Under the pieces are notes generated by a model, which saw only the letters and a list, made by a program, of their open reading frames with translations, made no database searches and was not told the origin of the DNA. 64,000 nucleotides of DNA from an uncultured SAR86 cluster bacterium. Lineage in GTDB: Bacteria; Pseudomonadota; Gammaproteobacteria; Magnimaribacterales; D2472. The position numbers and the translations under genes were made by a program. Shown here piece after piece: positions 30,132 to 33,370 of the stretch (position 1 is the first letter of the stretch; every line of letters starts with the position of its first letter). The stretch lies in contig CACJCN010000003.1 in NCBI GenBank assembly GCA_902591925.1, forward strand, positions 62,001 through 126,000. Reading direction: 5' to 3'.

Positions 30132-30854
30132 TTACTTTTCCCAATCAAATTTGGGTAACTCCTTAAATAGATTTCTTAAACCATCTGACCATTTGCTTGA
30201 AAGATCAGAAAAAAATGGTGTTTTAAACTGAAGATGTTCTTCAAGGGAAATTTGTATAGAATCCTTTTTATATACCACAAGATCAATTGGTGGACCAACA
30301 GTTAGATCGCTTTTCATAGTTGAATCAAAGGAAACTAGAGCACATCTTGCTGCATCACCCAAGGAAGTTTCATTTCTAATAAGTCTGTCAAGTATTGGTT
30401 TCCCATATTTAGTTTCACCAAGTTGGAAGAAAGGTTTAATTTCAGAGGCACGTATATAATTTCCAACTGGATAAACCATCATTAAAGCAGGATCTTGACC
30501 ACTAATCTGTCCACCAATTATAAAATTTGAACCAAGATGCGTATTGATAGATATCCCATCTGTTTTTGAGTGATTGAGTGATATTTGACCAACATAATCT
30601 GCAATTTCGTCAAAGTTTTTACAAAGGTTTAAACTGTTTTCAGGATTTGATGAATTAATATCATTTTCTAAAGTTTTATAAACATGCTGAGATGTTGATA
30701 AATTTCCAGAAGTTACAATAATTATAGACCTGTCACCAACTGAGTATGTAAACATTTTTTTATAAGTAGAGACATTATCTAATCCTGCATTTGTTCTTGA
30801 GTCTGATGCCATAACAATGCCATCATTCATTTTCATTCCTACACAATATGTCAT
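30132..30854 (-). CDS. Anbu, proteasome-type protease (HslV/beta-subunit-related)
   Basis: MTYCVGMKMNDGIVMASDSRTNAGLDNVSTYKKM: N-terminal Thr after Met, Asp at mature position 17, downstream KK; SFDSTMKSDLTVGPPIDLVVY. Confidence 0.92.
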   Translation of the reverse strand: MTYCVGMKMNDGIVMASDSRTNAGLDNVSTYKKMFTYSVGDRSIIIVTSGNLSTSQHVYKTLENDINSSNPENSLNLCKNFDEIADYVGQISLNHSKTDGISINTHLGSNFIIGGQISGQDPALMMVYPVGNYIRASEIKPFFQLGETKYGKPILDRLIRNETSLGDAARCALVSFDSTMKSDLTVGPPIDLVVYKKDSIQISLEEHLQFKTPFFSDLSSKWSDGLRNLFKELPKFDWEK

Positions 30855-30945
30855 ATAAAAAAATTAATTTAAGAATGGAATATTCTATATTTATATAATA
30901 AAAAAATACATAATATTAATTATCTTTCTTCTTCCCGTTTGGTAG

Positions 30946-31010
30946 AGTAAATCTGAACGTTCATCTTTAATAAAAGACGGAAGTAGGTAGCAGTCGAAGT
31001 ATCGATTTTT
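30946..31010 (+). ncRNA. Candidate glnA-type glutamine riboswitch aptamer in the leader of the ATP-grasp operon
   Basis: ACGTTCATCTTTAATAAAAGACGGAAGTAGGTAGCAGTCGAAG resembles the glnA RNA core (GUUCAUC...GACGGAAGUAGG...CGAAG); the 3' GGAACGC usually seen is not conserved here. Confidence 0.65.
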
Positions 31011-31050
31011 CTGAGCTTGTCTAGTTTTTTATTAAGTTTTGGCAAGATAA

Positions 31051-32484
31051 ATGGAAACAAACAAAAATATACCTAATAATTTTTATGATGAGTATCTTAA
31101 TGATAAAAAAATGCCTCGTAAAAAATTTCAAAACTCTTATAATTTTTTCAATAATTTAACTGCGAATAAAAGAAAACAATTAGGTAAAGTTCGTGACTCT
31201 ATTATTCGTTCAATGGGAATCACTTTTCGTGTTTATGATAATGACAAACTAATTGATAGAGAGTGGCCTTTAGACTTAATACCTAGAATTATAAAAGACA
31301 AAGAATGGAGTGAAGTAAAAGAGGGCCTTATTCAAAGAATAAGGGCAATTAACTTATTTATTCATGATGTTTATCATAAACAAGAATTTTTAAATAAAAA
31401 TCCTGTATTAAAATCATTAATTTTAGATTCACCTAACTTTTTGAAAGAATGTAAAGGAGTGTTTCCTAAAAATAAGATTTGGGCAAATATTTCTGGAACA
31501 GATCTGATAAAGGATCACCGAGGAAAATTTTATGTTTTAGAGGATAATTTAAGAGTTCCCTCCGGTGTCGCATATATGCTCGAAAATAGAAATGTTATGA
31601 AAAAAGTAGTAACAGAACTATTTAATGAATATCAAGTGTCGCCTGTCGATGATTATACAACTCAGTTATATAAATGTTTGTCCGATGCAAGTTACTCTAC
31701 TGAAAAAGATAAAACAATTGTAATTCTAAGCCCGGGAGTATTTAATTCTGCATATTTTGAGCATGCCTATTTAGCTCAACAAATGGGTATACATCTAGTA
31801 GAGTCGTCAGATCTTATTTTGTCAAAGGATAACTATGTTTACATGAAAACTATATCAGGAAGAAAAAAAGTAGATGTTATCTACAGAAGAATTAATGATA
31901 ACTATCTTGATCCAGACGTATGGGTTAAAGATTCAGTACTTGGGTTACCAGGCCTTATAAATTCTTGGAAAGAAAAAAAAATAGCTATTGTAAATGCACC
32001 TGGTTCTGGAGTTGCTGATGATAAGGCAGTATATGCTTTTGTACCTAAGATGATAGAGTTTTTCTTAAATGAAAAACCAAAGCTTTCTCAGGTTAAAACA
32101 TATTTATGCGCATTTAAAAAAGATAAAAAGTATGTTTTGGATAACATCGAAAGACTTGTTCTTAAACCCGTTAATGAATCTGGAGGCTATGGAATTCTCA
32201 TAGGACCAACTGCCTCTAAAAAAGAACTGAATGAATATAAATTAAAGATTATTAATAATCCCAGAAACTTTGTAGCCCAGCCACTAATTAGACTCTCAAC
32301 AAGTCCAACAATAATTAAAAGCTCAATTCAACCAAGGCATATTGATTTACGACCTTTTATTCTATCGAGTAAAAAAACTTTTATTACTAATGGAGGATTG
32401 ACTAGGGTTGCACTAAAAAAGGGCTCTACTATTGTTAACTCATCCCAGGGTGGTGGAAGTAAAGACACTTGGGTGGTTAATTAA
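31051..32484 (+). CDS. Circularly permuted ATP-grasp protein (COG2308 type)
   Basis: LEDNLRVPSGVAYMLENR, NAPGSGVADDKAVYAFVP, LKPVNESGGYGILIGP, RHIDLRPFIL. Confidence 0.95.
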   Translation: METNKNIPNNFYDEYLNDKKMPRKKFQNSYNFFNNLTANKRKQLGKVRDSIIRSMGITFRVYDNDKLIDREWPLDLIPRIIKDKEWSEVKEGLIQRIRAINLFIHDVYHKQEFLNKNPVLKSLILDSPNFLKECKGVFPKNKIWANISGTDLIKDHRGKFYVLEDNLRVPSGVAYMLENRNVMKKVVTELFNEYQVSPVDDYTTQLYKCLSDASYSTEKDKTIVILSPGVFNSAYFEHAYLAQQMGIHLVESSDLILSKDNYVYMKTISGRKKVDVIYRRINDNYLDPDVWVKDSVLGLPGLINSWKEKKIAIVNAPGSGVADDKAVYAFVPKMIEFFLNEKPKLSQVKTYLCAFKKDKKYVLDNIERLVLKPVNESGGYGILIGPTASKKELNEYKLKIINNPRNFVAQPLIRLSTSPTIIKSSIQPRHIDLRPFILSSKKTFITNGGLTRVALKKGSTIVNSSQGGGSKDTWVVN

Positions 32485-32485
32485 A

Positions 32486-33370
32486 ATGTTATCAAGTATT
32501 GCAGAGAAAACATACTGGCTTTCTAGGTATATTGAAAGAATTGAAAACACTTCAAGACTTATAAATGTAAACACAGATTTGCTTTTAGATATTCCTCATG
32601 ATGATGCAGTTAATTTAAAACATTTAATTCAAATAACAGGCCATATTCATGATTTTAAAAAAAAGAATACAAAAGAAAATGTTTATTATTTTTTGATACA
32701 AGATGAAAATAATCCATCATCAATAAAATACTCTTTAGAAATGGCAAAGATGAACTCTAGATATTTATTAACTATGCTTCCAAAGTCTGCATGGGAACAA
32801 TTTAATAATCTCTATATTGATTTTAATAGTAAAAAGAAACCATACAGTGAAGATCTATATGGGATCATTAGAAACTCTCAAAGTTTTTTCGCAATTATTT
32901 CTGACGGCATGCAAAGAAATGATGTATTTAATTTTATTAAATTAGGCAGATTTATTGAAAGAGCTGATATGTTATCAAGAATCATTGAAGATCAAATCTT
33001 AAGAAAAGAAAATAACGTAAATAAATATTATCAAAATTTACAATGGAGCAGTGTTTTGAGGTCTATTAATGGTTTTGAGTCTTTCAAATTGATCAATAAA
33101 AATAATCTAAATCAAGAGGTTGTAATAAAATTTATGATTATGGAAAAATTATTTCCTAGATCTTTAAAATATTGTGTAAATAAATTATTGGAAGTTCATA
33201 AGTTTCTACCAAAATCTCCCTCTATAAAAAATAACATTAGCAAGTTGCTTAAAAATTTCTCTAGTGAAAGTTTTTATATTAAAGATAGAAAAATGTTAAA
33301 ACTTTTAGATGGTTTTCAATTTGGATTAATAAATTTAGATAAAGATATAAAAGATAAGTTTTTCAATTAA
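32486..33370 (+). CDS. Alpha-E domain protein (COG2307 type)
   Basis: [48 protein letters not shown] at 32486 right after the ATP-grasp stop. Confidence 0.93.

Follow-up and report, generated by a model that had tools for sequence, protein, structure and literature searches.

A class-I glutamine riboswitch homologue ahead of the SAR86 ATP-grasp/Alpha-E operon, eroded in one lineage

The leader of an operon for a circularly permuted ATP-grasp protein and an Alpha-E protein in an uncultured SAR86 bacterium contains a homologue of the class-I glutamine riboswitch. In our preferred reading, which we hold at a probability of about 0.68, this is a riboswitch ancestral to one SAR86 subclade, working through a mechanism that we infer to involve an alternative hairpin, and weakened in the copy described here. 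That copy lies in a 64,000-nucleotide stretch of DNA, the whole of which was analyzed and which is referred to below as the window. The Anbu-linked ATP-grasp/Alpha-E system is widespread and has no known substrate or signal. If the reading is true, a metabolite-specific RNA switch in the leader would name glutamine as the signal of this system and would tie an uncharacterized peptide-ligase system directly to glutamine. The aptamer family was already known; the new element is the link to the ATP-grasp/Alpha-E operon, for which our search found no published report (weak evidence of absence). The features of the region are as follows, in window coordinates.

30132..30854, minus strand: proteasome-fold protein, divergent and outside riboswitch control (PF00227, E 2e-11)
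30920..30948, plus strand: promoter-like TTATCT-N17-TAGAGT with an extended -10 (TGn), inferred by eye
30956..31008, plus strand: class-I glutamine riboswitch aptamer (RF01739; cmscan, 37.3 bits)
30958..30962, plus strand: P1 5' strand, CGTTC (Rfam alignment)
30964..30977, plus strand: P2 hairpin, TCTTT-AATA-AAAGA (Rfam alignment; covaries in 50 SAR86 aptamers)
30966..30993, plus strand: proposed alternative (anti-aptamer) hairpin, 5' strand (duplex prediction; conserved in 13 of 13 leaders)
30978..30985, plus strand: conserved core CGGAAGTA, same as the consensus
30986..30995, plus strand: P3 hairpin, GGT-AGCA-GTC, with two G-U wobbles
30996..30999, plus strand: conserved core GAAG, same as the consensus
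31000..31004, plus strand: P1 3' strand, TATCG, eroded (GAACG expected; 3 of 5 pairs remain)
31011..31036, plus strand: proposed alternative hairpin, 3' strand, ending 14 nt before the ATG
31051..32484, plus strand: circularly permuted ATP-grasp protein (COG2308-like), 477 aa (PF14403, E 5e-148; PF04174, E 8e-125)
32486..33370, plus strand: Alpha-E protein (COG2307-like; PF04168, E 3e-61)

The original prediction had recognized a glnA motif, or glutamine riboswitch, in the sequence CGTTCATCTTTAATAAAAGACGGAAGTAGGTAGCAGTCGAAG, which does occur at 30958-30999, and had proposed scanning with the glnA and Downstream-peptide models and looking for covariation. The scan with cmscan and Rfam 15 bore the proposal out: RF01739 matched the plus strand at 30956-31008 over model positions 1-53, its full length, scoring 37.3 bits where the gathering threshold is 35. 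The E values were 1.8e-4 for the 64 kb against all 4227 families and 7.9e-7 for a single-family search of the whole genome. At the curators' thresholds this match and a tRNA were the only two in the window, and no second RF01739 copy was found in the 1.2-Mb, 93%-complete SAR86 genome. The core bases GTTCA (30959-30963), GACGGAAGTA (30976-30985) and GAAG (30996-30999) are all present in the window copy, and both P2 and P3 form, with P2 pairing TCTTT with AAAGA in the Rfam alignment, as had been predicted. The window copy clears the cut-off by a margin of 2.3 bits, a marginal score that might by itself suggest chance similarity without RNA function; given the genome-wide E value, the correct position and strand, and the strong matches in the orthologous leaders of 10 other assemblies, which already refute that reading, we consider it negligible. 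The class-II glutamine riboswitch (Downstream-peptide, RF01704) shares the GTTCA...GACGG start with the window RNA; its model, for which the cut-off is 33, matched the 5' half only and scored 15.9 bits, and class II was rejected on this score. Judged by its sequence, the window RNA is thus a homologue of the class-I glutamine riboswitch, with which it shares the P1/P2/P3 layout, the conserved core and the position in a leader. It differs from the described class in its eroded P1 3' strand, in the ATP-grasp/Alpha-E operon that it precedes, in a host that belongs to the Gammaproteobacteria and is no cyanobacterium, and in the SAR86 leader's own proposed alternative-hairpin platform.

The placement in the leader of the ATP-grasp/Alpha-E operon, also part of the original prediction, is conserved across a SAR86 subclade in which other copies score better. 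Among 203 SAR86 genomes searched, 12 had a close ATP-grasp orthologue (at least 80% identity), and RF01739 lay directly upstream of it in 11 of these, in 10 of them above the cut-off. Within the genus (34 genomes) the ATP-grasp gene was present in 10, with RF01739 directly upstream in nine; the tenth, G033, has a decayed yet recognizable upstream copy that falls below detection. None of the 24 congeneric genomes lacking the ATP-grasp gene carried RF01739. The orthologous leaders mostly scored 61-67 bits (62.6 in G014, 61.0 in SP147 and up to 66.6 in others). For SAR86 ATP-grasp orthologues at 55-69% identity, no adjacent RF01739 was found among the matches listed, and the upstream sequences of distant orthologues that were inspected in forward orientation held no aptamer. 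From this distribution, the riboswitch most probably arose in the common ancestor of a single SAR86 subclade.

Elsewhere in SAR86 the aptamer is common: RF01739 was present in 95 of the 203 genomes, and outside the order it was found in only one genome of a sample of 369 from the class. The proposed covariation analysis, carried out on 50 distinct SAR86 aptamers, revealed compensatory variation in both P2 and P3. Pair 3 of P2 was U-A in 27, C-G in 22 and U-G in one, and pair 1 of P3 was G-C in 24, A-U in 14 and G-U in 11. Other SAR86 copies precede genes for glutamine synthetase (glnA), glutamate synthase (gltB) and small proteins, as well as a TorF porin gene that is followed by an ammonium transporter gene. 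This list of downstream genes agrees with that given for the motif (PMC2864571), where it is likewise described before nitrogen-assimilation genes. Because the same aptamer stands before glnA, gltB and an ammonium-transporter operon in SAR86, glutamine sensing would be the natural reading of its function. A review assigns glutamine riboswitches to cyanobacteria and marine metagenomes; to these SAR86 can now be added as a named, abundant carrier.

The original prediction had also noted a departure from the motif on the 3' side (TATCGAT). The departure is real and located in P1, where CGTTC faces TATCG, so that U-U and C-U replace two of the five pairs and three are kept. Intact GAACG with all five P1 pairs was found in 10 of 13 orthologous leaders. 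In a tree of the ATP-grasp DNA sequences the window groups with G004 and G033 (support 95/97), and in these two the core itself has changed, from CGGAAGTA to CAGAAGTT and from GAAG to GATG; the G004 aptamer scores 26.4 bits and that of G033 was not detected. Given these core changes and the two P1 pairs lost in the window, comparison of the leaders indicates that this one lineage is losing the aptamer. Because P1 is incomplete, we treat the window copy as a worn homologue of the class-I family and not as a proven working member.

With P1 worn in the window and core bases lost in the sister lineage, the function of the window copy is uncertain, and we regard its continued operation as a switch as doubtful, if quite conceivable. 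The copy could be a decayed, non-functional relic that has lost glutamine binding and of which only the hairpin described below, or nothing, is still used, and we give this a little under an even chance. The two broken P1 pairs and the state of G004 and G033 argue for a relic, as does the new window sequence TCGAAGTATCGA, which in the predicted fold pairs with itself and competes with the aptamer. Against it stand the 12 bases of the core (CGGAAGTA and GAAG), unchanged despite the long branch of the window ATP-grasp gene (0.21 changes per base), and the changes in P3, which retain pairing through G-U. The energy gap between the aptamer and the best fold was rejected as a measure of damage, because it was about as large in the intact SP147 leader (17.8 kcal/mol) as in the window (18.5 kcal/mol).

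As an expression platform, the original prediction had put forward a pairing of CTTGTC (31016-31021) with GGCAAG (31041-31046). Both segments exist and pair when the fold of the window is constrained to keep the aptamer, but the pairing is peculiar to the window and not common to its relatives, and the proposal was not upheld. The predicted leader folds instead repeatedly paired the P2 loop, P2, the core and P3 with a U-rich stretch 3' of P1. In all 13 leaders this duplex was stronger than those predicted after shuffling of the downstream sequence (z -1.3 to -4.9), with p values for single leaders from 0.002 to 0.12, several of them only 0.03-0.12. The outer end of the hairpin lies 11-16 nt 5' of the start codon in 12 of the 13 leaders; in the thirteenth, G006, it ends 1 nt from a more upstream in-frame ATG. 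RNAalifold on a MAFFT alignment of the leaders recovered the aptamer parts only and not this hairpin, because the sequence alignment puts its strands out of register. Duplex energies, shuffles, swaps and a pair table made by hand served to test it instead. Native pairings were compared with swapped ones by permutation and were the better in 98-99% of cases with seven representatives and in 95% with five (fractions of swap permutations as good as native, 0.013, 0.021 and 0.05). In the pair table, covering nine leaders, A-U had changed to G-C on both sides at two hairpin positions, one in two leaders of a single clade and the other in one leader, and G-U variants were seen elsewhere. These figures are to be read with the A/U-richness, low sequence complexity and shared ancestry of the leaders in mind. 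A scan of the leader found no intrinsic terminator, and the leader has no obvious Shine-Dalgarno sequence for the hairpin to hide. Taken together, the odds that the alternative hairpin is real seem to us slightly better than even; if real, it would be mutually exclusive with the aptamer and would resemble an expression platform.

In the mechanism that we propose, the nascent leader would first fold the P1-P2-P3 aptamer, which would hold when glutamine is bound. When glutamine is absent, the U-rich segment 31011-31036 would invade P2, the core and P3 to form a long A/U-rich hairpin just 5' of the start codon. This hairpin might reduce expression, either through pausing of a terminator-like kind or because it covers a U-rich landing site for the ribosome, so that glutamine would raise expression. 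The broken P1 of the window would tip the balance toward the hairpin, so that its leader would be a weakened or nearly dead switch. Provided that the hairpin is real, we think an ON switch reasonably probable, with low expression in the hairpin state and higher expression with glutamine; the system would then be used when nitrogen is plentiful.

The opposite sign is also possible, at odds that we judge clearly short of even: as an OFF switch, glutamine would lower ATP-grasp/Alpha-E expression and the operon would be on under nitrogen limitation, as it is with NtrC in other proteobacteria. Nitrogen limitation induces the ATP-grasp/Alpha-E operon in other proteobacteria (PMC5491218; PMC6376114), which predicts a sign opposite to ON. 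In Burkholderia cenocepacia the cluster of DUF404/DUF407, DUF403 and transglutaminase genes depends on NtrC and sigma54 (PMC5491218), and in Pseudomonas putida Anbu rises when nitrogen is limiting, in work cited by PMC5666114 and PMC6376114. The SAR86 aptamer also stands before glnA and the ammonium-transporter operon, where repression by glutamine makes sense. Weighing against an OFF switch, the conserved alternative hairpin that excludes the aptamer resembles a blocking state, and characterized glutamine riboswitches activate on glutamine (PMC6316151), in agreement with the ON reading. Knowing whether glutamine raises or lowers expression would distinguish a role in starvation from one in nitrogen storage or nitrogen excess.

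Regarding the genes around the leader, the ATG of the Alpha-E gene, read from the sequence, lies one base past the ATP-grasp stop codon. The divergent proteasome-fold protein is probably Anbu, as suggested by its gene neighbors. The Anbu operon consists of ATP-grasp, Alpha-E, transglutaminase and Anbu genes (PMC6376114, PMC5666114). The window resembles it in its adjacent ATP-grasp and Alpha-E genes with a proteasome-fold gene next to them, and differs in that the proteasome-fold gene is divergent and not part of the operon; a search of the 93%-complete genome for the transglutaminase-like gene gave no Bact_transglu_N (PF08379) match. A bolder reading, which we hold to be a little less likely than not, is that a glutamine riboswitch took over control of the Anbu-linked ATP-grasp/Alpha-E genes in the SAR86 subclade, possibly as an ON switch with a platform formed by a conserved anti-aptamer hairpin, and that the window's lineage is now losing the switch but keeping the hairpin. 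The promoter-like element at 30920-30948 lies directly 5' of the aptamer, with a similar layout in most of the relatives' leaders that were inspected, and was absent from the consensus-scan output. In the interval separating the ATP-grasp gene from the divergent proteasome-fold gene, a further block, TATATTTATATAAYAAAAAAATACATAATA, at 30886-30915, looks near-invariant in the subclade, including G034, and is a possible shared promoter or regulator site. The ATP-grasp genes and leaders of loci L111 (G154) and L059 (G016) are near-identical although the two genomes are assigned to different genera, which points to recent horizontal transfer of the cassette or to a binning error.

Several observations concern the other SAR86 copies. 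In genome G139 (SAR86 D2474-A1-1), a tandem glutamine riboswitch (L116:2528-2692, plus strand) precedes a 54-aa open reading frame in which YRGT motifs recur. This frame weakly matches DUF4278 (PF14105; E 0.0011; 19.7 bits, where the cut-off is 25.3); DUF4278 is the domain of IF17, a factor that inactivates glutamine synthetase in cyanobacteria and is controlled there by glutamine riboswitches (PMC6316151). Open reading frames of about 43-54 aa also lie 3' of mostly tandem glutamine riboswitches in other SAR86 genera (L112, L117, L118, L119, L120, L126 and L107), an arrangement like that of the cyanobacterial Downstream-peptide. Several of them end in KKD(V/L)FFPYYL, a type for which no Pfam match was found, and their Shine-Dalgarno sequence AGGAGATG is able to pair with CATCT right after P1. 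In the SAR86 groups f4 and f1/g12 (e.g. G038, G041, G095, G096 and G100), genomes with neither P-II nor a sigma54 DNA-binding domain carry several glutamine riboswitches each (2-6 in most), preceding glutamine synthetase, the TorF/ammonium-transporter operon and a TonB receptor; here the riboswitches may substitute for the lost protein circuit. Such a replacement was rejected for the window's genome, where both P-II and sigma54 are present. Finally, in other SAR86 families, L023, L024 and L025 gave weak RF01739 matches of 26-34 bits and share a longer form ending in ...GGAAGTAGGAAGATAGGAAAACCTCTTTCTT, which is perhaps a variant glutamine aptamer.
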